Counted from the first letter of the stretch, positions 3,981 through 25,669 are shown. The stretch is 64,000 bases of DNA from Methanobrevibacter sp. (GCA_017434555.1 JAFRFB010000097.1:1-64000), one strand, 5' to 3'. Notes: generated by a model not told the origin, from the sequence alone. A program made the numbers and translations.

Positions 3981-3985
3981 AAAAG

Positions 3986-4006
3986 AACCGGTTGTTATGA
4001 CCGGTT
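3986..4006. terminator. Bidirectional terminator
   Basis: AACCGGT / ACCGGTT stem with a 7-base loop, A-rich on the left and T-rich on the right, between convergent genes ending at 3980 and 4010. Confidence 0.8.
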
Positions 4007-4009
4007 TTC

Positions 4010-4423
4010 TTATATCTCCTTTAACAAATCTTCCGTTCTAACTGCATCCAGTTCTGCTTTCACTTCTGCGATATGGTCATGGATCCACCATTCAGGGTAA
4101 ATCACTCCGTTTATATTGATTATATGCCTAAAGTAATAGATTTGCCCACAATCATGTCCTTTATGGTCCGTCTCTAATATTCTGGCAGGATATTTGTACC
4201 TGAAAATTGGAATGCCTAACGATTTACGATTAACCCATGCTGCGCTGATTAAGAGAACATCGCTGAGTTCGTTATAAACAGGAGAATGTTTTTCTCCAAC
4301 TATGTACCATGTTCCCATGTCATTCTTCAATTCCGGCTTGGAGATATAAAAGTATGAATCTAACTCCCAAACTGGAACACCATCAGACTTGGTGTAACTC
4401 CTTAACTCCTGTACCTTAATCAT
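4010..4423 (-). CDS. Array-A paralog 9 (last), unknown
   Basis: 137 aa, last member of a nine-gene minus-strand family. N-terminus MIKVQELRSY, C-terminus TEDLLKEI. Most similar to its upstream neighbour: both share the W-x-L/W-D-S/C-x-FYxSKP motif near residue 25, GTWYIVGE, and IxINGxIYPEWWIxDHIAEVxAEL. Rich in Trp and Tyr, no membrane segment, no recognised domain. Its ATG lies inside the stop region of the upstream gene (8-base overlap). Ends one residue pair short of the E-I-D-D tail of the others, which fits with no gene following it. Confidence 0.8.
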   Translation of the reverse strand: MIKVQELRSYTKSDGVPVWELDSYFYISKPELKNDMGTWYIVGEKHSPVYNELSDVLLISAAWVNRKSLGIPIFRYKYPARILETDHKGHDCGQIYYFRHIININGVIYPEWWIHDHIAEVKAELDAVRTEDLLKEI

Positions 4424-4826
4424 CCATCTCCTTTAATAAGTCTTCCGTACATACATCGCTTAGTTCTGCCTGTACCTCGCTGATATGATCTAAGATCCAC
4501 CATTCCGGATAAATAATACCATTTATGTCGATTATGTACCTGATATAATACACCTGACCTTTCTTATGGCCACGATGATCCTCGTGTAATACCCTAGTCG
4601 GAAAACGATAGTGCAGGAGTGGAACCCAACCCTCGCGTTTCTGGTACAGGGATGAAGCAGGAACAGGATAATCGCGCTGGCGAATCCTAGCATCACCCTC
4701 ACCTACGATGTACCATATTCCATCATACTGTTGCAATCGGGGTTTGGACATGTAGAAGGTACAATCCCATTCCCATACTGGATTACGGTACGAATCATAA
4801 CTCCTTATCTCCTGGATCTTAATCAT
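4416..4826 (-). CDS. Array-A paralog 8, unknown
   Basis: 136 aa; a recent duplicate of paralog 9 (MIKIQEIRSY..., YYIRYIIDINGIIYPEWWILDHISEV). C-terminus TEDLLKEMDD. The codons for K-E-M-D (AAGGAGATGGATG) also form the ribosome site and start codon of the next gene, so the tail is under two constraints. Function unknown. Confidence 0.8.
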   Translation of the reverse strand: MIKIQEIRSYDSYRNPVWEWDCTFYMSKPRLQQYDGIWYIVGEGDARIRQRDYPVPASSLYQKREGWVPLLHYRFPTRVLHEDHRGHKKGQVYYIRYIIDINGIIYPEWWILDHISEVQAELSDVCTEDLLKEMDD

Positions 4827-5196
4827 CTATCTCCTGTATTACCTTTTCCGTATGTATGTCCTCGATCAGCGCCTTAACCTCAATGAAATGCTCCAGGAGA
4901 TATGGGTAATCATATACCTTACCATCAATCAGCAAGTCGATGTCATGGGTACGTTTGGTGTAATCGATTTCCGCGTAATCACCAATCCAGTCATGCGCGA
5001 AATGACCAATATATGCCAACGAGGTTTTCTTTTTCCGGTCATACACCGATATATAAGTATTATCCTGTAAATCTAATTGATTCATGTAAGATGAAACCAG
5101 TTTTTGCTTCTCTATTACTGGATCTATCGTATCTTCCAGATGCGTTTCTGTACCGTGAGAATAATAGCTTGTAACTTTAAACTGTACCCTACTCAT
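4819..5196 (-). CDS. Array-A paralog 7, unknown
   Basis: 125 aa, N-terminus MSRVQFKVTSYY, C-terminus TEKVIQEIDD. The 'LLIDGKVYDYPYLLEHFIEVKALI' segment matches the family's '(I)DGKEY-x-Y-x-(E)-x-x-H-x-x-E-V' core before the tail. The N-terminal two thirds is too diverged to align by eye to paralogs 8 and 9. Overlaps both neighbours by 8 bases. Confidence 0.8.
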   Translation of the reverse strand: MSRVQFKVTSYYSHGTETHLEDTIDPVIEKQKLVSSYMNQLDLQDNTYISVYDRKKKTSLAYIGHFAHDWIGDYAEIDYTKRTHDIDLLIDGKVYDYPYLLEHFIEVKALIEDIHTEKVIQEIDD

Positions 5197-5638
5197 CCAT
5201 CGCCTTCAGATATAATTCCGTATTGTAATCGCTGATCCAGGACTGTACCTGGGGGAAGTTCTTCTCTATATCCTCGTACCAATATTCCGTATCATTTATG
5301 ACCAGACAGAAGAAAGGACCATGATTCGTCTCTACAGTTGGAGGAGGATCTTCCATACAGTCCTTATGGTTAATGTTACAACCATTAAACCAATCGCTAT
5401 ACCGTATTGTACCATCTTCCTCAATCTCTGACAGGTTTAACGTAACAGCTATAACCTCATTGTTATGGATATTATACCATTCCTGCCGATGTAACACAAG
5501 CGGTTTTGGAAGATCTATATCCTCGCTGACCCATTCTAATTTCCCCAATGTACCACGAAGGGTTAGATCCTGTCCATTTACCTTTCCGTGAATGTACATC
5601 CTGTTATGACCCTTGAAATATTTTCTCAATTTAATCAT
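5189..5638 (-). CDS. Array-A paralog 6, unknown
   Basis: 149 aa, N-terminus MIKLRKYFKGH, C-terminus NTELYLKAMDE, the most divergent tail of the set (LKAMDE in place of L-x-E-I-D-D). The core reads VINDTEYWYEDIEKNFPQVQSWI, a weak version of the shared IDGKEY motif. No recognised domain. 8-base overlaps on both sides keep it in the translationally coupled chain. Confidence 0.78.
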   Translation of the reverse strand: MIKLRKYFKGHNRMYIHGKVNGQDLTLRGTLGKLEWVSEDIDLPKPLVLHRQEWYNIHNNEVIAVTLNLSEIEEDGTIRYSDWFNGCNINHKDCMEDPPPTVETNHGPFFCLVINDTEYWYEDIEKNFPQVQSWISDYNTELYLKAMDE

Positions 5639-5981
5639 CTGTAATTTCCTCGATTAGCTGTCTAGCAACAGCATCGCTTATGATCGCCGACATTTCCATC
5701 TCATGGGAGTAAATGTCACTGTACCTGTACTCCTTACCATCTATCTCCAGATAGGTTTCGTAGTTCAGGAACGTACCAAGCTGGAACTGGCAATGAGGAA
5801 CAGGGATAGAGGGAAGATGGAATTCTAGTTCCAGCTTGTACTCCCTTAATTCTGGTTGGTACTTACGGTTTAATGGTGTAGGTTTAGCTTTATGAAGAAC
5901 GATCGGATGCGATATATCCGGAATATCCGTACTATCAAAAGCTTTCTCGTTAAATGCCTTCGAAACCACTTTGATCATCAT
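5631..5981 (-). CDS. Array-A paralog 5, unknown
   Basis: 116 aa. Core LEIDGKEYRYSDIYSHEMEMSAIISDAVARQLIEEITDD. The tail lacks the T-E pair but keeps L-I-E-E-I. FLNYETYLEIDGKEYRYSDI closely parallels FTNHDSWLEIDGKEWRYPEI in paralog 2, so these two share a more recent ancestor. Start codon doubled (ATGATG), with AGGAGAT 3 bases before it. Overlaps the upstream gene by 32 bases because that gene has lost its usual stop. Confidence 0.78.
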   Translation of the reverse strand: MMIKVVSKAFNEKAFDSTDIPDISHPIVLHKAKPTPLNRKYQPELREYKLELEFHLPSIPVPHCQFQLGTFLNYETYLEIDGKEYRYSDIYSHEMEMSAIISDAVARQLIEEITDD

Positions 5982-6300
5982 CTATCTCCTGTAACAGCTT
6001 TTCCGTATGCATACGATCGAATAATACCTTAAGTTCAGCGTAATGTTCCTTCACCTGTGCTTCATCGTACTCTTTATCGTCTATCACCAAAATGGTACGG
6101 GTTGTTCTGTGCCCGTCCTTATCTATCTTCCATGTATCACCTATCCTGTCCCAAGTACACCCATTAGGAAATTCATCCCAATGATAGATAATAGCTGGTA
6201 CGGAACTCCTATCATCGAGGTGTACATCAATGATGGGTGTGTCTTCTACCTTCTCCTCTGGTGTTCCGAGGTTAGATATTGTACGTAACATGATTACCAT
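5950..6300 (-). CDS. Array-A paralog 4, stop-shifted, unknown
   Basis: 116 aa. Core LVIDDKEYDEAQVKEHYAELKVLFDRMHTEKLLQEIDD, then an added DQSGFEGI. In other members E-I-D-D is followed at once by TAA, which lies within the next gene's ATGATTAAG start; here the start reads ATGATGATCAAAG, which removes that stop and extends the protein by eight residues into the next gene. N-terminus MVIMLRTISNL. Unknown function. Confidence 0.78.
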   Translation of the reverse strand: MVIMLRTISNLGTPEEKVEDTPIIDVHLDDRSSVPAIIYHWDEFPNGCTWDRIGDTWKIDKDGHRTTRTILVIDDKEYDEAQVKEHYAELKVLFDRMHTEKLLQEIDDDQSGFEGI

Positions 6301-6632
6301 TCTATCTCCTGCGTTATGGTTTCGAGGTTTATTTCCGTTTCATAGTCTGACATTGCTGTCATAAGCTTTGTTGATTCTTCCTTGATTGAATAGGAGCGTA
6401 CCCATTGCGAGGTGATTAGCTCCAGGAAGATACTGTCGGATTCGATCCAATTCCGGTTGATTCGCATATGGATCGGGGGTTGTCCCATGTCATCCTGGAT
6501 CCAATACTCCAGTTGAAACACTCCATCCTGGAGATAATACCTGTATCCGTTGACCAGCTCATCGATTACTGGTCCTGGTTGTTCGGAAAGATCTTCTCGC
6601 GGATTCTGTACCATATAATGAACCTTAACCAT
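6294..6632 (-). CDS. Array-A paralog 3, unknown
   Basis: 112 aa, N-terminus MVKVHYMVQ, tail NLETITQEIEW. The IDGKEY core is not evident; ELITSQWVRSYSIKEESTKLMTAMSDYETEI may be its diverged counterpart. The Q-E-I-E-W end again overlaps the next ribosome site (CAGGAGATAGAATGG). Overlaps are 7 and 8 bases. Confidence 0.76.
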   Translation of the reverse strand: MVKVHYMVQNPREDLSEQPGPVIDELVNGYRYYLQDGVFQLEYWIQDDMGQPPIHMRINRNWIESDSIFLELITSQWVRSYSIKEESTKLMTAMSDYETEINLETITQEIEW

Positions 6633-6993
6633 CTATATCCTCCAACAGGTGTTCCGTCTCGTTTATGTCCAGTAACGACCGTACCTCTGCGATATGGGTT
6701 ACGATCTCGGGGTAACGCCATTCCTTACCATCTATCTCCAACCATGAGTCATGATTGGTGAATCGACCCAGCCTGACTTTATGCATCTGATGTACCTTTT
6801 CTATATCGGTAAGGTAATACCAATGGGGATTATCGTAATACTGGATCTCCAAGTACTTGTTATCGATTGCGTCTACTTGCCGTTCCATTTTATGTGGATC
6901 CACGTCCATGAGTCGTAAATTGACCAGGTGATATACCTCACTGGGATGAGGATCCTCGTTCAGGTCCGGAATATGGAGTAACACCTTAACCAT
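6625..6993 (-). CDS. Array-A paralog 2, unknown
   Basis: 122 aa, N-terminus MVKVLLHIPDL, core LEIDGKEWRYPEIVTHIAEVRSLLDINETEHLLEDIDG, which is the clearest copy of the family C-terminal module: IDGKE, (W/Y)-x-Y, H-I-A-E-V, then T-E-x-L-L-x-(D/E)-I-D-(D/G). N-terminal part is unassigned. 8-base overlaps with both neighbours (ATGGTTAA). Confidence 0.8.
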   Translation of the reverse strand: MVKVLLHIPDLNEDPHPSEVYHLVNLRLMDVDPHKMERQVDAIDNKYLEIQYYDNPHWYYLTDIEKVHQMHKVRLGRFTNHDSWLEIDGKEWRYPEIVTHIAEVRSLLDINETEHLLEDIDG

Positions 6994-7444
6994 CTATCTC
7001 CTCCAGTAATGTATCGGTACGGATCTGGTCCAGGAGAATGCGTAAGTCATTCAAATGATCCTGTACATACTGGTTGTTATACTCCGTTCCGTCTATGATC
7101 AAGGTACAGTAACGATAGACCTGGATGTGTTTGACCTGTGGACTCATCTGGAATTCTTCTTCATATCTGGCGCGATCTATGTCTGTTATCTCATGATCCT
7201 CACCCATCGTGAATACCCAGTTTTTCTCCGTTCTTCTGAAGAAATAATTATCGTATTCTTCCTGTCCATCCTGATCCTGTACTCGCTTAACCGTACCATC
7301 AACTGTCATGTTATTATGATTCATCACGAAATGATCCAGAGAAACGGAACATGGATCCAACAGGAAATCGAGGTACCACGTTCCTGGAATGATTCCTTCC
7401 CTACTGTACTTATACCTGTAATTCCGTACTAAAACACTATGCAT
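6986..7444 (-). CDS. Array-A paralog 1 (first), unknown
   Basis: 152 aa from this start (MHSVLVRNYRYKYSREG). I chose the ATG at 7444 over one at 7492 because GGAGAT lies 2 bases before it, the same arrangement as in all other members, and because the longer version would begin inside the promoter. C-terminal core LIIDGTEYNNQYVQDHLNDLRILLDQIRTDTLLEEIDG matches the family. First gene of the operon transcribed from 7471-7499. Confidence 0.78.
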   Translation of the reverse strand: MHSVLVRNYRYKYSREGIIPGTWYLDFLLDPCSVSLDHFVMNHNNMTVDGTVKRVQDQDGQEEYDNYFFRRTEKNWVFTMGEDHEITDIDRARYEEEFQMSPQVKHIQVYRYCTLIIDGTEYNNQYVQDHLNDLRILLDQIRTDTLLEEIDG

Positions 7445-7470: not shown

Positions 7471-7499
7471 AATATAACAAATCTTTCATCATCTGTCAA
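7471..7499 (-). promoter_or_regulatory. Sigma70-like promoter of array A
   Basis: On the minus strand TTGACA (7494-7499), 17 bases, TATATT (7471-7476) continuing as TATATTTG. A near-perfect consensus, 27 bases before the first array gene. Confidence 0.88.
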
Positions 7500-7539: not shown

Positions 7540-7568
7540 TTGACAATTATTCTAAATTTTTCTATATT
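7540..7568 (+). promoter_or_regulatory. Sigma70-like promoter TTGACA-17-TATATT
   Basis: Perfect TTGACA, 17 bases, TATATT, pointing away from the array-A promoter 40 bases to the left. The expected +1 falls on the ATG at 7575. Confidence 0.85.
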
Positions 7569-7708: not shown

Positions 7709-7737
7709 TTTACAAATCAATCAAATTTAACTATATT
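7709..7737 (+). promoter_or_regulatory. Sigma70-like promoter TTTACA-17-TATATT
   Basis: TTTACA, 17 bases, TATATT; 42 bases before the ATG at 7780, which has an AAAGGA ribosome site. Confidence 0.82.
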
Positions 7738-7779: not shown

Positions 7780-8160
7780 ATGGAACAGATTATCAACATG
7801 ATTCTCGGTCAGTCCAACATCAATCTCCAGGCATTCGGTTTGAACGTTCAGTCCGCTCAGACTGTCCAGCCGGTCACCGTCGAAGTTATCCAGGCAAAGA
7901 TCAATCTCATCAAACAGCTCGATTCCATTCCGGCAGCTCATCAGTTTGTTGAAGATTTCCAGATTGAAACTGTGAACCAGCTGGACAGTCTGATGAAGAT
8001 GGAAGCTGTCATCGGTGTCAAGCCGACCACTGAACAGCTCAATGGCATCAACATCAAGATTGATGCTATCATCAACGAACTCGAGACCAGTCTGAAGAAC
8101 AAGATGCTCGCCAAGCTCAATGGTCTCGGACTCGGTGCTCTGAGTGGTCTGGTCCGCTAG
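7780..8160 (+). CDS. Unknown early protein rich in Gln, Ile and Leu
   Basis: 126 aa, mostly predicted helical, with amphipathic repeats (VEVIQAKINLIKQLDSI, GINIKIDAIINELETSLKNKML) and an Ala/Gly/Leu-rich end (LNGLGLGALSGLVR) that could be membrane-active or an oligomer tail. No Cys and few aromatics. Third positions are strongly C/G biased relative to the window average. Strong early promoter and ribosome site suggest high expression soon after infection. No family recognised. Confidence 0.8.
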   Translation: MEQIINMILGQSNINLQAFGLNVQSAQTVQPVTVEVIQAKINLIKQLDSIPAAHQFVEDFQIETVNQLDSLMKMEAVIGVKPTTEQLNGINIKIDAIINELETSLKNKMLAKLNGLGLGALSGLVR

Positions 8161-8597: not shown

Positions 8598-8626
8598 TTG
8601 AAAAAAGGGCTATTTTTTGGTATATT
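8598..8626 (+). promoter_or_regulatory. Sigma70-like promoter of array B, TTGAAA-17-TATATT
   Basis: TTGAAA, 17 bases, TATATTTG. Expected +1 about 3 bases before the ATG at 8636. Confidence 0.75.
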
Positions 8627-8635
8627 TGGTATATT

Positions 8636-9007
8636 ATGGATAATATGGATATAGAACCTTTATTGAAGTCGTATATTAGGTATGCGATGGGATTTGTGCC
8701 TAAGGAGCGGATGGCATATGCTACTAATAACGGTAAATATGACCGTATTAAGATAGTGTTTAATTCTAAGGGTAATATAATTGACGCTCATACATATGCG
8801 ATAACCTTTGAGTTATATAATGGTGAACAGCGTATTATTATAGGTAGTTTGTGGTTATCGGGAAGGAATCTTTATATAATAGAGACGGTAGTTAATATCG
8901 TATTATATAGAAGACATATACAAGAAATGATGGAATTTGAAGAATTTTGTAATGCTAATAATAATATTCCTAAGGGTATATTGAAGATACCTATGAGGTT
9001 AGTATGA
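8636..9007 (+). CDS. Array-B paralog 1, C-terminal PKGILKIP
   Basis: 123 aa from MDNMDIEPLLKSYIRYAMG. Shared with the next four genes: an N-terminal helix (LL-x-S/K-Y-I-x-Y), a central strand pair ending in G-x-(L/I)-W-(L/F), a short (L/I)-Y-x-I segment, and the tail N-I-P-K-G-I-L-K-I-P followed by 4 residues. Start chosen from promoter position; the next in-frame ATG at 8645 is also possible. Very AT-rich, with unusual use of AGG and CGG for Arg, unlike the gene at 7780. Function unknown. Confidence 0.78.
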   Translation: MDNMDIEPLLKSYIRYAMGFVPKERMAYATNNGKYDRIKIVFNSKGNIIDAHTYAITFELYNGEQRIIIGSLWLSGRNLYIIETVVNIVLYRRHIQEMMEFEEFCNANNNIPKGILKIPMRLV

Positions 9008-9363
9008 TAGATCTTGATAATTTAAGGTCATATATTGCGTATATTGTGCGAAATGCGTCTCTTGAACAGTGGCAATTAGGTTCATTGGTAAATTTAAATA
9101 AAGAGAAGATTCAGGTAACGACTATATTGAATGATGGTAGTGCATTATTTGATATAATGGATTATTTAGGGAATAATAGGATTATTGGACGGATATGGTT
9201 TACATGCCAATATATAATGCTTGTTAAGAATGAGGTTGAGCGTTCTATATTATATAATGGTTGGCCAGAAGGTGTTGATTTATATAGTGTATATGAGAAG
9301 AATGTAAAATTACCAGAAGTTCCTGCAGGGATATTGAAGATTCCTACTGATTTTAGGGTATGA
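9004..9363 (+). CDS. Array-B paralog 2, C-terminal PAGILKIP
   Basis: 119 aa, MIDLDNLRSYIAYIVRN. Carries RIIGRIWFTCQYIMLVKN in the middle and ends EVPAGILKIPTDFRV. Begins with ATGA overlapping the upstream stop; GAGG in the end of the preceding gene is the likely ribosome site. Same domain plan as paralog 1, but the middle is too diverged for confident alignment by eye. Confidence 0.8.
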   Translation: MIDLDNLRSYIAYIVRNASLEQWQLGSLVNLNKEKIQVTTILNDGSALFDIMDYLGNNRIIGRIWFTCQYIMLVKNEVERSILYNGWPEGVDLYSVYEKNVKLPEVPAGILKIPTDFRV

Positions 9364-9364
9364 T

Positions 9365-9778
9365 ATGATAGATATTAGTGGAATAACTATTAAAGAATTG
9401 ATAGAATATGCTGATTACTGTATGGGTATGATACCTATAGAGGAGCGTACTAGGTTTCCTGGTGAGATGCGGGGAATATGTAATGAAGTACGGCATGATC
9501 GGTATTGTAATATTGAATCTGCTATAATAGATGTAAGTCCTGAGGATAAGAGTATTATTATAGACATATATGATTCTGGTCATACACAGGTTATGGCGGC
9601 TAGGATATGGTTGAACAATGGGCGTATTTATTTGATGGATTGGAATAGTGGTAGTTTATTATATGAAATGTCACCTTCTGGGGTTGAAACGTTTGAGCAA
9701 TTTAAGGCAAGGATAACGTTGCCTAAGGTTCCTAAGGGTATATTGAAGATTCCTGCACATATGACGGCGACGGTATAA
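9365..9778 (+). CDS. Array-B paralog 3, C-terminal PKGILKIP
   Basis: 137 aa, the longest member, MIDISGITIKELIEYADYC. Core QVMAARIWLNNGRIYLMDWNSGSLLYEM and tail LPKVPKGILKIPAHMTATV. The 'RIW-x5-IYLM...S-LLY' block aligns with 'RIWFTCQYIML...SILY' of paralog 2, supporting common descent. Preceded by TAGGGT as a weak ribosome site. Confidence 0.8.
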   Translation: MIDISGITIKELIEYADYCMGMIPIEERTRFPGEMRGICNEVRHDRYCNIESAIIDVSPEDKSIIIDIYDSGHTQVMAARIWLNNGRIYLMDWNSGSLLYEMSPSGVETFEQFKARITLPKVPKGILKIPAHMTATV

Positions 9779-9779
9779 A

Positions 9780-10139
9780 ATGACAGAAATTATAAATCAA
9801 GAAACTGTTGATATAGACACATTATATAAATATGTTCAATTCTGTCTTGAGAAAGCCGGAGTTGGGAAGTTATATAATTTGACTTTAGAAAAGCTGACAA
9901 ATTCTGGAAATTTATATTTTTATTATATGACGCAGAGCTATGGAACTCTTAGGATAATGTGTTATATTAATTTACATACATGTTATTATAATGCGTTTGA
10001 ACCACGTTATCGTCGGTATATTCATCATAGTATAATAAAGGGAATACCTAATTATATTGATTTTTCAAGTAATAACGAACAAGGATTTGTAAGTGTTCCG
10101 AAGGGAATATTGAAGCTTCCGAAAAATTTAGGAGTATAA
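9780..10139 (+). CDS. Array-B paralog 4, C-terminal PKGILKLP
   Basis: 119 aa, MTEIINQETVDIDTLYKYVQFCLEKAG. Central TLRIMCYINLHTCYYNAF replaces the RIW block; tail VSVPKGILKLPKNLGV. No clear ribosome site before the ATG, one base after the upstream stop, so translation is probably coupled. Tyr-rich. Function unknown. Confidence 0.78.
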   Translation: MTEIINQETVDIDTLYKYVQFCLEKAGVGKLYNLTLEKLTNSGNLYFYYMTQSYGTLRIMCYINLHTCYYNAFEPRYRRYIHHSIIKGIPNYIDFSSNNEQGFVSVPKGILKLPKNLGV

Positions 10140-10140
10140 T

Positions 10141-10521
10141 ATGCAAGAATATTCAGATTTTGAATCTAGCAGGGTATATAGTTATTTCAGGTTATGTATT
10201 GATTCGATTAAGGATAGGTTGGATCTTGATACATATAACCTTGGCTTAATTTTACCTCATGGAACGACTATTACATGTGTAGTTAAGTGTTATAAGAAGC
10301 CTCGTAATAAAGTGGATTTATATTCTGTTCTTTATAGGGATTATGCATTGCCTAAACAATATTATTGCATGATTGATATTAAGCGAAATAATATAATGGT
10401 TAAAAATTTAGATGACGGTGAAACCTTATTTAATGGAAAAACCGGAGTTAAGACCACTTTTTCGGATTTTGTGTATGGTAAAGTTCGAAAAGGATTATTG
10501 AAAATTCCGGCAAAGTTATAA
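10141..10521 (+). CDS. Array-B paralog 5 (last), C-terminal RKGLLKIP
   Basis: 126 aa, MQEYSDFESSRVYSYFRLCIDSI. Ends KVRKGLLKIPAKL, the most altered tail but still G-L-L-K-I-P. 'YYCMIDIKRNNIMVKNLDDGETLFNGKTGVKTTFSDF' parallels the '(I)W...I-Y-x-M...LLYE...V-x-T-F-x-x-F' block of paralog 3. TAGGAG ribosome site. A strong terminator follows, closing the operon. Confidence 0.78.
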   Translation: MQEYSDFESSRVYSYFRLCIDSIKDRLDLDTYNLGLILPHGTTITCVVKCYKKPRNKVDLYSVLYRDYALPKQYYCMIDIKRNNIMVKNLDDGETLFNGKTGVKTTFSDFVYGKVRKGLLKIPAKL

Positions 10522-10567: not shown

Positions 10568-11932
10568 ATGACGAAATTATCAGAAAGTGAGAAGTTTAAT
10601 GACCTTGATATAAATCGATTAGCTAGACAGGTTAGACAGAATGATGGTCGTGCTAATCGTGGAATTGTGTATCAGGACGATAAGCGATATAATGATTATC
10701 AGGGTGAGAAATGGCTGGATGTAAGAAGTAAAGATAAGAAAACTCTTATTGCAGCTATCCTTGATGGTATGTCTGATGTTCAATATCATTATAAGGGAAA
10801 GTTATATAAGGATATTAAGAACGAGGATGATTTAATGGCCTCATACGAAGCAAATAAGGCTGTTGTGGACTCGATTTTAAATTTCCTAGGTAAATATATG
10901 CATAAGCACACAACGGTCTACAGAGGCTTCGGATTTAGCTCTGATGAGTATCGTAAGATGATACACAAGAATAATATTAGATTTGAACATCAGTTATTGA
11001 AAATATTGAATAATAGGGGTAAGAAATTCAATTCTTTTAGTGTTTCTCCATTTATAAGTAAGGATTTTGCAGAAGGTGGTGGTAATAAAGCCATTATTAT
11101 TGCAGCAGATGTAGAACCGAATGATATTGCTTTTGCATTTACTGCTTATTTGTTAGGAAGACATGGAAGTCCTGCAGAATTGGAATTAAATATCAATAAC
11201 CTTAAGGATTTAAAAAATTTAAGAATTATTAAAGATATTGATGCTGAATGTGCACGATTTGTTAAATATACAGATACAGAAGAAGAATTACAGAAAAGAT
11301 TGGATTCTGGCGAATCTATGGAATCTGTATTTAAGTATGTAAAGAAACTTAAGGTTTTTAGCGGAACAATTTATAAATGTGGAACATTATGCGGTGAGGT
11401 TATTGTCAAGGATAATAAGATTGTTGTTCCTCGTAGTCGAGAAATACATTATATAAAAGACGGAATATTTGTTATTACTCCTATGGATGATCTTACTGAA
11501 CATAATATATTGTATAACTTTAATAATGAAACTAAGAGTAAGCCATATGAAGGTATATTGTTCTATGGTGCTGATAGCGATGATAAATTGATAATCGCAT
11601 ATAATGGTGATAACAAGTATACATTATTGGATATGGAAACATGTCAATCGAAATTCAAGGGATATGCAAAGAAAATTTCACGCTTACCGGGAGTTACATG
11701 GTACGGACAAAAAAATATTTGGCATACTGTTGAATTTTATTTAGTAACATTATTGGATAACACGATTACAATTTTCAACAATAATGGTTCTTGTGTATTC
11801 AGACGTGCCCCATATAAGTTTATTAAGATTGATTGCAATTCAGATAAATTGATAATGAATTGTGTGGAACAACCCGGTAAAAACCCTCGACGATTCTCAA
11901 TCAAAAATAATTTAGCAATCGAAGAAATGTAA
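10568..11932 (+). CDS. Late ADP-ribosyltransferase (R-S-E class)
   Basis: 454 aa. The three hallmarks of the arginine-type mono-ADP-ribosyltransferase fold are in order: Arg in V-Y-R-G (R119), the S-F-S-V-S strand (156-160) with FISKDFAEGG after it, and E-L-E (E204 and E206) as the ExE turn. Such enzymes move ADP-ribose from NAD+ to a target. T4 carries Alt and ModA of this class, which modify host RNA polymerase. The C-terminal 220 residues have repeated short strands (GILFYGADSDDKLIIAYNGDNKYTLLDMET) that look like a beta-propeller-like or repeat domain. Late, probably leaderless expression suggests a virion-packaged, injected enzyme like Alt; this is inference. Confidence 0.85.
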   Translation: MTKLSESEKFNDLDINRLARQVRQNDGRANRGIVYQDDKRYNDYQGEKWLDVRSKDKKTLIAAILDGMSDVQYHYKGKLYKDIKNEDDLMASYEANKAVVDSILNFLGKYMHKHTTVYRGFGFSSDEYRKMIHKNNIRFEHQLLKILNNRGKKFNSFSVSPFISKDFAEGGGNKAIIIAADVEPNDIAFAFTAYLLGRHGSPAELELNINNLKDLKNLRIIKDIDAECARFVKYTDTEEELQKRLDSGESMESVFKYVKKLKVFSGTIYKCGTLCGEVIVKDNKIVVPRSREIHYIKDGIFVITPMDDLTEHNILYNFNNETKSKPYEGILFYGADSDDKLIIAYNGDNKYTLLDMETCQSKFKGYAKKISRLPGVTWYGQKNIWHTVEFYLVTLLDNTITIFNNNGSCVFRRAPYKFIKIDCNSDKLIMNCVEQPGKNPRRFSIKNNLAIEEM

Positions 11933-11967: not shown

Positions 11968-14900
11968 TTAATAAAAGAATTCGTCTAATGCTGAATCTTC
12001 CAATATTAATTCGTCGCCTTTTCTCATCCATTTTGAAATTATATACATGGATTCAAACAGAGCACAGAAAGATTTTCTAAACATTGTTTCGTAGTCGATT
12101 GTAAACAATGAATCGAATTCCTTTGGCCAGCTATCTAAGAATGCGACAAAGTTAACTGGATTCAAACCTGACTTACCAACTTCCTTATACTTGAACTCAT
12201 TATTTGGCAATACATAAATGTATTTCATCTTTGTATTGTTATTAATCGGGTTAAGTTTCAATCTCTTCTTTGCGACAACATAGTTATAAGTTAATGCTGC
12301 TTTTGCACCGAAAATAACTGAAGCATTATCGCCCTTATCGAATTCAAGACCATTCTTTACATAGTAATCGATTGGTTCTGGAATGTATTTCTTATAGTTG
12401 GAAATACCGATAACTGCAGAAATTTCATTGACACTGGAATTACAATATTTTGTATACGTGTCCTTGATGAATCTATCTGCATGATCCTTAGACATACCAT
12501 TACAAATATCGAATGCTAACTTTTCAGCTGCAACTTTACAGAAGTCAGGCATTGTAGATTTCTTAATAGGAACACCCATGATTTTGTGCTTAGGACCTTC
12601 TGGATGTTTCTGCATAGATTTCGGCAATGCTTTCCATTCTTCTTCAGTCATTGCAAACTTATCGATTTCACCCATTGGGAAGATAGAACCTTCGTTATCG
12701 ATTACGTTACCAATATAGAGTTTCTTTGCGAAGCAGAACATATTGGTAAAGATATTTTCTCTGTTGAACTTAATCAACTGTTCAGTCTTCTTTAACTTAG
12801 CCTTATAAGCAAGAACTCCGTTATAGAAATCCTGGAACATCTTTTCTGTCTTTTTGAAGAATTCTCTATATTCATCTGCAACAGACTTATTGTAATCCAT
12901 GATTGCTCTGTTCTTCTTGTGCATTTCTGCAAGTTGAGCATCGGTCATTCCGTCTTCAGGATGTAACAATTCCTTGATTTGTCTACCTGAGAAATAACCT
13001 TCTTCGATAAGTCTTTCTTTGATTTCATGAATACACATGTAACAAGAGTCAGTATCGTTATGAATAATGCAAGATTCTCTGTTAGTAACCTTTAATGGTG
13101 TCTTGTTCTTTAATGTAATACCGAAATACTTTTCAATATCTCTGATACATTCTGGTGTTGTATAATAATTATTACAGCACTTAGACAACCAGTCTCTTAA
13201 AGTAACTCTTGCACATCTACAAATTGCTCTAGCACAGTCTGGATTATAAAGATGGAAGGAACCAGCAAGGGAAACACCATAAACAGAGTTAATAATAAGC
13301 TTTTTCGTCATCTGTCTATTGTGACAAAGATTTTCCATGTCCTTATCACCAGCAAGCTTTGCTGCTTCTTCTTTATCTTTCCAAATCTTTCTTTCAGCAA
13401 AAACTTTTCTAACAATATTCGGAAGAATTGCATCGTCTGTTCTTAAGAAACCAACTTCTGCAACGTCGGACAATATAACTTCACCAGATTCAATTTGTGC
13501 CTTAGTCGGATGTCTAACAACAGTTTCTGGAGAAATATTGAACATCATAATATGGTGAGGATAGGACGATGTAATATCGAAAGACATACAATCGTCAAAT
13601 CTACCAGGATAGTCATAACAATAACCAGCTTTAGTTGCAAACTTTTCAAATGGATGAGGCCATGCTTTAAACTTTTCCATATCTTCAGCGAAAAGTTGTG
13701 CAGTTGACCTGAATACACCTTTAACTTTCTTTGGTTTCCAGAACTTTGCAATATCACCACGATAAATTTCAATGCTTTCGCCCTTGTTAATCTTATCCTT
13801 AATTTGATACTTTATAAATTCTGGATTATCATCTTCCCATTCAGTGTTCTGATAGTAGATAGAACCATCTTTTTGCTTAATCTTATAACATTCTTCTTCA
13901 GCCCACCAGTCTTCATGTTCTTTCTGTTTATCGAGAAGAACTTTACCGTGTTCATGTAAGAATCTAAGAATATAACCAGTCGTTGTAGGAACTTTATTTT
14001 GAACCTTATCAAGAGTAACAAGACAGTCGAAAGCATATTCAATAAGTAATGGAATGAGCTTATTCTTTTCTTCCATTCTAACGATAAGCATAACGTCTTT
14101 TCTGTTATACTGTGCGAACCTATCCCAATTATACTTATAGGTTTCGTTAATGGATCCATCATATTCAAGCTTACTATCTTCAAGTTCAAAATTAGCAACA
14201 TAGTTAAGAGAATAAGAAGGCATTGGAGGATGGTTTCCAAAGACCTTATACAATTCCATATAGTCGATAGAATACAAACCAGGAATATCATAAGACATGC
14301 CTAAATCAACATCTTCGAGCTTACGGTCAGTAATCTGTTTTGTTTCAGGCATTTTATTGAATGGAGATAACTTTCTTTCCCATTCAGTCTTAACATCTTT
14401 ATTCTTTAATCTTAACTTATTACATCTGTTTATAATATAAGGAACGTCATAAGAAACAGAGTTCCAACCAGAGATAATATCAAAATCCTGTTTCTGGAAC
14501 CACTTAGTCCATTTATCAATCAAATCAATTTCATTTTTACAAGGAATATAGTTTGGTAATTCTTGAACATCACCAAAATATGGTTTTAGGCCCCAAGTAT
14601 AAGATTGTTTTGTTTTGGTCGAATAACACGTAATTAAGTTAATTGGCCATTCTGCTTTTTCTGGAGCTGGGAATTCATAAGTAACATAACATGAGTCTTC
14701 ATATTTGACCCACATGTGTTGTTCTTCATCGAAAACTTCGAATTTAGATTTATCTTTACACTTTGTATCGAAAACATATAATTCACATTGACCGAATTTT
14801 TTTCTATCGATACTTCTAATTTCGATTATATGCTCATCATAGAATGGAGAAGAACCTGCAACTTCAATATCGAAGAAGCAAGTATTCCAATCATTAATGT

Positions 14901-15195
14901 CTACTGATAATTCAGCTTTATCATAACGTTCATGCATGAATTTGACTTCTGGTTTCAAGTCTGATTCTGCAATGATTGCACCTGATGCTTTTAAAGCTGC
15001 GATTTCGTCTTTATTTGTATAATCGTATCGTTTTAATGACCTCTTATACATATCTTTATATTCACCCTTATTTTCTGGGTCTGTAATATAACACCATGGT
15101 GAATATTTGAATTTTTGCCAACCCGGAACGCCTTGTTCTTTCAGGTATATATTTTTCTTAAAACTATCGTAATAGCAATTCTTAAATCCTGTCAT
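11968..15195 (-). CDS. 43: Family B DNA polymerase (T4 gp43 type)
   Basis: 1075 aa, against about 900 for T4 gp43. Exonuclease motifs: FFDIEVAG (D109, E111), SGWNSVSYDVPY, and YNRKDVML. Polymerase motifs: A (SFDITSSYPHHI), B (KLIINSVYGVSL) and C (HNDTDSCYM). It replicates the phage genome with 3'-5' proofreading. The extra length appears as insertions in the exonuclease region and around the palm; no intein signature was seen. A TATATTTG box lies 60 bases upstream of the ATG, possibly its middle promoter. It is convergent with the ADP-ribosyltransferase gene and shares its terminator. Confidence 0.97.
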   Translation of the reverse strand: MTGFKNCYYDSFKKNIYLKEQGVPGWQKFKYSPWCYITDPENKGEYKDMYKRSLKRYDYTNKDEIAALKASGAIIAESDLKPEVKFMHERYDKAELSVDINDWNTCFFDIEVAGSSPFYDEHIIEIRSIDRKKFGQCELYVFDTKCKDKSKFEVFDEEQHMWVKYEDSCYVTYEFPAPEKAEWPINLITCYSTKTKQSYTWGLKPYFGDVQELPNYIPCKNEIDLIDKWTKWFQKQDFDIISGWNSVSYDVPYIINRCNKLRLKNKDVKTEWERKLSPFNKMPETKQITDRKLEDVDLGMSYDIPGLYSIDYMELYKVFGNHPPMPSYSLNYVANFELEDSKLEYDGSINETYKYNWDRFAQYNRKDVMLIVRMEEKNKLIPLLIEYAFDCLVTLDKVQNKVPTTTGYILRFLHEHGKVLLDKQKEHEDWWAEEECYKIKQKDGSIYYQNTEWEDDNPEFIKYQIKDKINKGESIEIYRGDIAKFWKPKKVKGVFRSTAQLFAEDMEKFKAWPHPFEKFATKAGYCYDYPGRFDDCMSFDITSSYPHHIMMFNISPETVVRHPTKAQIESGEVILSDVAEVGFLRTDDAILPNIVRKVFAERKIWKDKEEAAKLAGDKDMENLCHNRQMTKKLIINSVYGVSLAGSFHLYNPDCARAICRCARVTLRDWLSKCCNNYYTTPECIRDIEKYFGITLKNKTPLKVTNRESCIIHNDTDSCYMCIHEIKERLIEEGYFSGRQIKELLHPEDGMTDAQLAEMHKKNRAIMDYNKSVADEYREFFKKTEKMFQDFYNGVLAYKAKLKKTEQLIKFNRENIFTNMFCFAKKLYIGNVIDNEGSIFPMGEIDKFAMTEEEWKALPKSMQKHPEGPKHKIMGVPIKKSTMPDFCKVAAEKLAFDICNGMSKDHADRFIKDTYTKYCNSSVNEISAVIGISNYKKYIPEPIDYYVKNGLEFDKGDNASVIFGAKAALTYNYVVAKKRLKLNPINNNTKMKYIYVLPNNEFKYKEVGKSGLNPVNFVAFLDSWPKEFDSLFTIDYETMFRKSFCALFESMYIISKWMRKGDELILEDSALDEFFY

Positions 15196-15255
15196 TTAAT
15201 TTTTACCTTCAACTCGCTGTATTATACGGTAATTTATATTATTTATTTTGTTTTA

Positions 15256-15263
15256 CAAATATA
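15256..15263 (-). promoter_or_regulatory. TATATTTG box before DNA polymerase
   Basis: Minus-strand TATATTTG, also found before the topoisomerase gene (29695), the gene at 40038 and the gene at 62186. No good -35 box, so an activator-dependent middle promoter is possible. Confidence 0.4.
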
Positions 15264-15270
15264 ATAAAAT

Positions 15271-15298
15271 AATCCCAGAGGAACTTCCTCGTGGGATT
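15271..15298 (-). terminator. Terminator after the gene at 15322
   Basis: Two-part stem: AATCCCA / TGGGATT and inner GAGG / CCTC, with T-rich minus-strand sequence after it. Confidence 0.75.
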
Positions 15299-15321
15299 TT
15301 TATTTAATATTTTTAAAAATA

Positions 15322-15528
15322 TTAAATGTTTAATGCCTTAACAAATGCGGCAAGATCACTGAAGGCCTGGACATAGCCAGCCTTGAATTCTTCCTTACCG
15401 GAAGGAACATTAGTCTTCTTAACTTCATCCAAGCGAGCAGGAATAAACTGCTTAATTGCACGAATAGAATTTACGAGGACGTCCTCAGAGTCTACTGCAT
15501 CGTTAAAGTTATTACCATTAGTCATCAT
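15322..15528 (-). CDS. Small unknown helical protein
   Basis: 68 aa, MMTNGNNFNDAVDSEDVLVNS, ending AFVKALNI. Predicted helical, no recognised motif. Last gene of the minus-strand group that includes IF-1, separated from the upstream gene by 23 bases and followed by a terminator. Confidence 0.7.
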   Translation of the reverse strand: MMTNGNNFNDAVDSEDVLVNSIRAIKQFIPARLDEVKKTNVPSGKEEFKAGYVQAFSDLAAFVKALNI

Positions 15529-24719: not shown

Positions 24720-24742
24720 ATTCACAAGAAATGGAGGTTCTT

Positions 24743-25669
24743 ATGAACTTAATATTTATAACATGTAAAATTTGTAATGCGACTATTAAAAAATTAGGCA
24801 ATCATTTATATCAGTCGCATCCAGATATTTCATTTAAAACATATTATGATACGTATTTAAAACAGCCAAATGATGGTATTTGTAAAATTTGTGGAAAACA
24901 AACAAAATTTGATACAAAACGACGTCATTATTTAGCATGTTGCTCAAAAGAATGTAATAATAAATATATTTATCAACAAACACAAAAAGCATTAATTAAA
25001 AAATACGGGGTTGATAATGTATTTAAATCACCAGAATTAATGGCCGAATCATATAAAAATAAAGATTATAATAAACGTTCTTTAAAAACACGTCAAGTAA
25101 AATTAGCAAAATATGGTGATTCTGGTTTTTGTAATGTAGAAAAAAGAAAGAAAACAAATATTAAAAAATATGGGGTTGAATCATTTACACAAACTGCTGA
25201 TTTTTATGAAAAACGTAAAAATACAATGATTAACAAATATGGTAATGATATTACCATGTATAATCATGAACTTTTTATAAAAACTAAACAAAAATATACA
25301 TATAATAATATAAATTTTGATTCAGCATGGGAATTAGCATATTATATTTGGTTAAAAGATCATAATATTGATTTTGAATACCAACCAGATATATCATTTG
25401 ATTATGAATATAATAATAAAATTCATAGATATTACCCAGATTTTTTAGTTGAAGATGAAATACAAGAAATTAAAGGAACACAATTTTTTGAAAATAAAAA
25501 TCCAAATAATAAAATGATATGTCCATATAATAGAGATTTAGATGATTTTGTTGAAGCAAAACATCAATGTATGATAAAAAATAATATAAAAATAATAACA
25601 GATTGTACGGAATATTTAAATTATATTAGAAATACATATGGAAATGATTATCTAAAACAATTTAAATAA
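24743..25669 (+). CDS. PD-(D/E)xK homing endonuclease
   Basis: 308 aa from the ATG at 24743, which has GGAGGT 5 bases before it (an ATG at 24731 overlaps that site). Residues 1-80: Cys-His zinc finger and CKICG knuckle like those of the endonuclease at 874. Middle: three repeats of K-Y-G-V/N-D/E-x-x-x (KYGVDNVFKSPE, KYGVESFTQTAD, KYGNDITMYNHE), typical of homing-enzyme DNA-binding repeats. C-terminus: SAWELAYYIW...YYPDFLVEDEIQEIKG, a PD-(D/E)xK nuclease core. Strongly AT-rich codons mark it as foreign. Inserted right after the gp13-type terminator. Confidence 0.8.
   Translation: MNLIFITCKICNATIKKLGNHLYQSHPDISFKTYYDTYLKQPNDGICKICGKQTKFDTKRRHYLACCSKECNNKYIYQQTQKALIKKYGVDNVFKSPELMAESYKNKDYNKRSLKTRQVKLAKYGDSGFCNVEKRKKTNIKKYGVESFTQTADFYEKRKNTMINKYGNDITMYNHELFIKTKQKYTYNNINFDSAWELAYYIWLKDHNIDFEYQPDISFDYEYNNKIHRYYPDFLVEDEIQEIKGTQFFENKNPNNKMICPYNRDLDDFVEAKHQCMIKNNIKIITDCTEYLNYIRNTYGNDYLKQFK

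Follow-up and report, generated by a model that had tools for sequence, protein, structure and literature searches.

The 64,000-nucleotide stretch of DNA analyzed here (hereafter the window) carries on its minus strand, between positions 4010 and 7444, nine open reading frames (ORFs) that we named A1 to A9 in the order of transcription and that together form array A (Table 1). Consecutive ORFs overlap by 8, 8, 7, 32, 8, 8, 8 and 8 nucleotides (nt), in exact agreement with the original prediction, which described nine minus-strand genes with overlaps of 7-8 bases and a single one of 32. The products are small, about 100-160 amino acids (aa), and mostly acidic (isoelectric points 4.2-6.4), and A8 and A9 are a recent duplicate pair with 50% identity. 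A consensus promoter had also been claimed ahead of the array, and as a sequence match it is indeed found there. A mechanical ORF call placed the start of A1 at position 7492. This start was rejected because the -10 hexamer of the promoter ends at 7471 and a GGAG motif precedes the ATG at 7444. As read from its sequence, array A is a single unit of paralogs that runs from a conserved sigma-70-type promoter to a terminator.

Table 1. Features of array A, in window coordinates.
Feature	Position	Strand	Product	Remarks
Array A promoter	7499-7471	-		TTGACA, 17-nt spacer, TG ahead of the -10, TATATT; 11 of 12 consensus positions
A1	6986-7444	-	152 aa	First gene; ATG at 7444 with GGAG upstream; family membership E 1e-12
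A2	6625-6993	-	122 aa	Canonical member; model m6abdc9fd9295
A3	6294-6632	-	112 aa	Outlier without IDGKEY core; weak family link
A4	5950-6300	-	116 aa	Tail extends beyond the junction (32-nt overlap with A5)
A5	5631-5981	-	116 aa	
A6	5189-5638	-	149 aa	Model m0de6176307de
A7	4819-5196	-	125 aa	
A8	4416-4826	-	136 aa	50% identity to A9
A9	4010-4423	-	137 aa	Last gene; C-terminus ...TEDLLKEI, lacking the junction-imposed D-D/G of internal genes
A1/A2 junction (example)	6979-7001	-		GGAGGAGATAG-ATGGTTAA: ribosome-binding site, start codon, 8-nt overlap; recombination seam
Terminator-like hairpin and T-run	3986-4006	-		Directly after A9; on the + strand, reads as a terminator at 3984-4008

Contig C134, of 172,971 bases, contains the window and belongs to a bin of 3.15 Mb. 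A public copy, at 99.98% over 23 kb, is a contig of the bin Methanobrevibacter sp. RGIG2231 from goat duodenum, and a matching copy is also present in a second bin of the same genus. Two further genomes carry the array in synteny, namely a close relative, L008, which is an IMG/VR contig of 415,750 bases, and the more distant L010, a 49-kb contig. The length of L008 identifies the source as a jumbo phage; its polymerase is a distant relative of the T4-like gp43 (26-29% identity). Both promoter hexamers of array A are identical in the window, L008 and L010, and the spacer differs in L010. In the window, TTGACA-N17-TATATT with at most one mismatch occurs at 12 sites against 1.9 expected. The Methanobrevibacter bin would suggest an archaeal host, which we doubt, since the conserved sigma-70-type promoters indicate a bacterium; they argue for a bacterial host and a binning error. 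The array has a GC content of 42-44% in all three genomes, whereas a second array, B, described below, and the remainder of the window stand at about 32%.

The common tail of the array A proteins combines two layers, a protein core that reflects real homology and a very end (E-I-D-D/G) that is largely forced by the junction with the next gene. The core consists of an IDGKEY-type hairpin followed by a helix, HxxEVxxLLDxxxTExLLxE, in which the leucine codons vary, with IDGKEY itself some 30-40 residues ahead of the junction. To evaluate this homology, the members of the three arrays were sorted into nine ortholog groups, and each group was scored by profile hidden Markov models (HMMs) built from the other groups, with 300 shuffles and a nominal Z=1000. 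With the last 50 residues, the region for which a profile search had been proposed, every member of eight groups was linked at E 3e-6 to 2e-17 and none of the 300 shuffles matched the real score. When the last 12 residues were removed, which leaves nothing junction-coded in the tested tail, the eight groups still scored above all shuffles (E 0.05 to 3e-12). These scores indicate that A1, A2 and A4-A9 share a homologous C-terminal region of about 45 residues that extends beyond the junction-coded end. A3 behaves differently: its own score was reached by 4 of 300 shuffles and is not significant, it is tied to the family solely through the L008 paralog L8_4 (E 1e-5) within the last 25 residues or so, and profile-profile comparison (HHalign) did not speak clearly for or against a link. 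The IDGKEY core, first thought to be common to the nine genes, is missing from A3. Likewise, the strict end T-[ED]-x-L-L-x-[ED]-[IM]-D-[DG] that had been attributed to each gene is complete in A1, A2, A4 and A8, while A9 ends at E-I, A7 comes close to the pattern and A5 and A6 deviate. As a protein feature, the shared tail stands for its core, whereas its last few residues are set not by the protein alone but also by the overlapping start and stop and by the ribosome-binding site. The strong divergence of the N-terminal parts is borne out, as neither HMM nor HHalign detected any similarity between ortholog groups in this region.

Over 22 junctions of the three arrays, the consensus is GGAGATAG-ATGATTAAGGT, and the unit GGAGATAG-ATGATTAA combines ribosome-binding site, start and stop. 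An exact 8-nt overlap is found in 16 of these junctions, and GGAG occurs within 16 nt upstream in 17, compared with 10.5% of background windows. The 8-nt overlap, ATGNNTAA, dictates D-x-stop in the upstream protein and M-x-K (or R, N) in the next one. This is why the last gene, which ends ...EI in all three arrays, has no D-D/G, and why A1 and its ortholog start with MHS and not with the MIK or MVK of internal genes. The first gene of L010, an ortholog of A2 and hence of a gene that is internal in the other arrays, keeps MVK. Translationally coupled pairs are recognized by a short same-strand overlap together with a Shine-Dalgarno site in the upstream gene; array A shows both, and its overlapping genes are candidate termination-reinitiation pairs.

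The same junction and the tail before it are where the array changes. Gene order is conserved in the syntenic arrays, which comprise 11 genes in L008, nine in the window and five in L010, and A1, A4, A5 and A7 have no counterpart in L010. Compared with L008, the window is without three genes, and each switch between L008 genes falls inside the tail or the junction (at CTGGACCAGATCCGTAC for A1/A2, GGAGGATATAGATG for A2/A3 and GGAGATAGA for A3/A4). In addition, the last gene of L010 is a mosaic with an A9-like head, an A8-like body and an A9-like end. Nearest relatives are often neighbors (L8_4 and A3, L8_6 and A4, A8 and A9), as expected from local duplication. These alignments show that whole genes have been gained or lost by crossover in the shared tail or junction, and the seam of putative translation coupling is therefore also the site of gene gain and loss.

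Selection was assessed on eight ortholog pairs between the window and L008. The pooled ratio of non-synonymous to synonymous substitution rates (dN/dS) is about 0.28 (0.29 for the N-terminal part, 0.24 for the last 45 residues), and no frame is broken; values involving L010 are partly saturated in dS. These ratios indicate that the orthologs are kept by purifying selection, and positive selection in the N-terminal part was rejected on the comparison of 0.29 with 0.24. The pooled dS between window and L008 is about 0.39 for the array and 0.14 for the polymerase gene, a greater overall divergence, of the kind expected after recombination with a more distant relative. The array had been called rapidly diversifying. 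This is correct for gene content, which changes fast among close relatives, but it does not extend to positive selection.

In accordance with the earlier remark that the family was not a recognized one, PHROGs, Pfam, NCBIfam, PADLOC and PDB sequences gave no convincing match to array A members, and no Pfam family, of the PH clan or other, was above cut-off for any of them. The PADLOC models, which cover defence and not anti-defence proteins, gave a single hit against 25 members (E 0.02, one member), so that no known defence protein was matched. A tblastn search with A2 against 50,697 phage records found nothing at E <= 1, and no member was seen in 18 patatin-bearing phage records, in a search without a positive control of its own. 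The other members found were confined to the syntenic arrays of the two IMG/VR records and to near-identical copies in two bins. A weak hit at G001:366282 (C76:3793) was discarded, since the 189-aa protein there is unrelated and resembles the tail only over a short stretch at its end. Across the full alignment of members, no segment was sufficiently conserved to support a more distant search. In the literature, we found no papers on tandem early paralogs with shared tails. On this search evidence, array A is a new, jumbo-phage-specific protein family.

Structures were predicted with AlphaFold2 for A2 (predicted local distance difference test, pLDDT, 79.6; predicted template modelling score, pTM, 0.69) and A6 (pLDDT 82.0, pTM 0.69). 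Although the two proteins are only 19% identical, their models show the same order of elements: strands in the N-terminal part, then a final hairpin that coincides with the IDGKEY core and, at the C-terminus, a long helix. This order is compatible with the PH superfold, which consists of two near-orthogonal antiparallel sheets of seven strands in all and a C-terminal helix cap. The best PDB matches in VIA-align, where a Z under 8 may reflect a common arrangement, were the PH domains of AKT1 (Z 4.3), IQSEC1 and GRK2 for A2, and those of BRAG2 (Z 4.0), GRP1, PIKE and ARNO together with the Ran-binding domain of RanBP3 for A6. Matches of the two models to this superfold, including the PTB domain of Fe65, align 73-93 residues over the strands and the C-terminal helix. 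On the other hand, Z is at most 4.3, the root-mean-square deviation (rmsd) is 3.5-5.5, identity is 4-12%, sequences do not match and known PH-type domains are eukaryotic. The best viral match in Foldseek, from Caulobacter phage CcrSC (E 0.006), aligned at an rmsd of 8.1 and was not used. Array A members are thus predicted to be PH-like beta-barrels with a C-terminal helix cap, in which the constant tail would form the last hairpin and the helix that caps the barrel, with the remaining strands and loops coming from the variable N-terminal two thirds. Each match is weak by itself, but the agreement of two divergent members on one fold merits a test. Taken with the sequence test on eight of the nine genes, the two models do not show what would have spoken against a family, that is, unrelated folds with similarity confined to the overlap.

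Beside array A lies a gene at 7780-8160 with a GC content of 48.6%, faced by two divergent promoter-like sites with a TATATT -10 (7540-7568 and 7709-7737, plus strand). Farther on, and divergent from array A, array B (8636-10521, plus strand) contains five small paralogs with the tail VPKGILKIP (L008 has eight of them and L010 six) and is directly preceded by a promoter-like TTGAAA-N17-TATATT at 8598-8626. It ends in a gene (10568-11932, plus strand) for a 454-aa protein with the motif stretch YRGF...FNSFSVSPFISKDFAEGG, which by eye we take to resemble an ADP-ribosyltransferase (ART); L010 has a second, diverged copy of this gene at 14656-15453. Elsewhere in the window, the start of a terminase-like protein (43626-44681, minus strand) holds a stretch that, judged by eye, is intein-like. 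Contig C134 also contains nine dispersed related genes (for instance 862-1641 and 24731-25669) that, again by eye, we take to be homing-endonuclease-like. In the same bin, contig C76 (15,730 bases) is about 95% identical to positions 360-372 kb of L008, and the phage is thus scattered over several contigs of the bin.

The original suggestion of a host-takeover or counter-defence set is plausible. We propose, as a tentative reading with a probability of roughly 0.45, that array A is an early-type operon of exchangeable host-takeover binders. Its proteins would be made together, early in infection, by the host RNA polymerase; early use is what we infer from the type of the promoter. They would bind different host (or defence) targets without acting as enzymes, since a common scaffold that presents a variable face suits binding better than catalysis, and they would make up a host-takeover repertoire whose members are swapped by recombination at the seam. 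The host-type promoter, the coupled small genes with mostly acidic products, array B and the ART-like gene together resemble a host-takeover region. Several points weigh against this proposal. The word early derives from promoter type, no homolog of known function was found, and A3 may fall outside the family. With Z values of 4.3 and 4.0, the assignment to a PH-like fold is weak, Foldseek gave no match at E <= 0.001 for either model against PDB and viral models, and the A2 and A6 predictions share alignment rows and are not independent. Finally, the orthologs do not display the positive selection that is often expected from an arms race.

The main rival to host takeover is that the products are subunits of one heteromeric complex, with coupling to keep stoichiometry and the C-terminal helix as the assembly interface. 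Genes that overlap or lie close together frequently code for parts of a complex: heteromeric-complex subunits are enriched 4.5-fold in E. coli and 8.1-fold in H. volcanii among gene pairs at -8 to +10 nt (PMC10666635), and a C-terminal region common to the members would suit such an interface. Nevertheless, overlaps of -8 couple less efficiently than shorter ones (PMC10666635), and a fixed complex would hardly tolerate 5, 9 or 11 genes in relatives or the absence of A1, A4, A5 and A7 from L010, so that we consider this alternative unlikely; a ring of exchangeable paralogs would be a possible variant of it. A counter-defence set, in which each member would neutralize one host immune or restriction system, possibly as an acidic mimic of DNA or protein, is, taken on its own, likewise unlikely in our view. 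Small acidic proteins, whose net charge reaches -14.6, a rapid turnover of genes and the location among small early-type genes would fit it; however, the charge is far from uniform (-1.1 for L8_2, -3.1 for L10_5, -4.0 for A9), and known defence-related models, which do not cover anti-defence, are not matched.

One could also wonder whether the tail is a DNA feature only, a ribosome-binding site plus a recombination seam following unrelated proteins. The junction does force D-D/G-stop and M-I/V-K, which are absent from the last genes and from A1, respectively, and A3 fits the description. Yet a tail that is a mere by-product of the overlap is ruled out for eight members by the homology that survives removal of the last 12 residues; together with the distance of the IDGKEY core from the junction and the same layout in the models of two divergent members, this largely refutes the idea for these eight and leaves it very improbable as a whole. 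As for neutral tandem duplicates with little function, the variable copy number would agree with them, but purifying selection at a pooled dN/dS of 0.28 and the intact frames disfavor them, and we regard them as the least probable of these explanations.

The host-takeover reading can be compared with known phage systems. T4-type early regions carry the ADP-ribosyltransferases Alt, ModA and ModB, and the coliphage parallel extends here to the distantly gp43-like polymerase and the nearby ART-like gene; the small early genes of T4 are not known to form a tandem array of paralogs with a common tail. The host-takeover module of Bacillus phage SPO1 comprises 26 early genes, all of them small and equipped with strong promoters and ribosome-binding sites (PMC6873191). 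Array A is also a tight cluster of small genes with a host-type promoter and good ribosome-binding sites, and as the SPO1 products are supposed to act on host processes, a similar function could be suggested by analogy. It differs in being a single operon of paralogs with a common C-terminal region and one repeated junction, and in its lack of sequence match in the phage collection searched with A2. Jumbo phages are also known for lineage-specific expansions, such as the zinc-ribbon proteins of Bacillus phage G with about 35 copies (PMC7824862). Array A is a jumbo-phage-specific multi-copy family as well, but it is gathered in one overlapping operon and has no zinc-ribbon cysteines.

In these phages, small proteins with variable bodies may commonly carry constant tails. 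In L008, the VPKGILKIP tail of array B is found on other genes at a second locus about 330 kb away (L077 4456-12286, about 344.5-352.3 kb of the contig), with eleven genes of at least three body types. All 24 VPKGILKIP proteins are linked when the tail is included and split into six unlinked clusters after its removal; since synonymous codons also vary within it, this tail is kept as a peptide. Like array A proteins, they are small, with variable bodies and a constant C-terminal tail, but the latter has about 10 residues, stands at varying distance from the stop and follows unrelated bodies, whereas the 45 or so residues of array A fold within the domain in the models. A related jumbo phage has eight small genes with different bodies and the near-invariant end YVELDDIVL (L049 15996-20681, minus strand). 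Five tandem genes in L052 (5442-8384, plus strand) are constant at the other end, with the N-terminus METFRxGTFETNSSSxH, and thus mirror the constant-tail arrangement. A hypothesis, which we find rather doubtful, would be that constant tails (the hairpin and helix of array A, VPKGILKIP at both loci, YVELDDIVL) dock unrelated small proteins to a common phage or host hub, so that exchangeable bodies recruit different targets and recombination in the tail makes new combinations.

Array A thus offers a concrete case of a rumen jumbo phage whose small early proteins would form a modular and exchangeable set, and it adds a new protein family whose predicted fold can be tested. Because the seam carries the ribosome-binding site of the next gene together with its start and the preceding stop, a crossover there could add or remove a whole gene and leave the operon unbroken. 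Considered together, the tails of array A, VPKGILKIP and YVELDDIVL raise the question of whether constant tails could serve these phages as docking signals.

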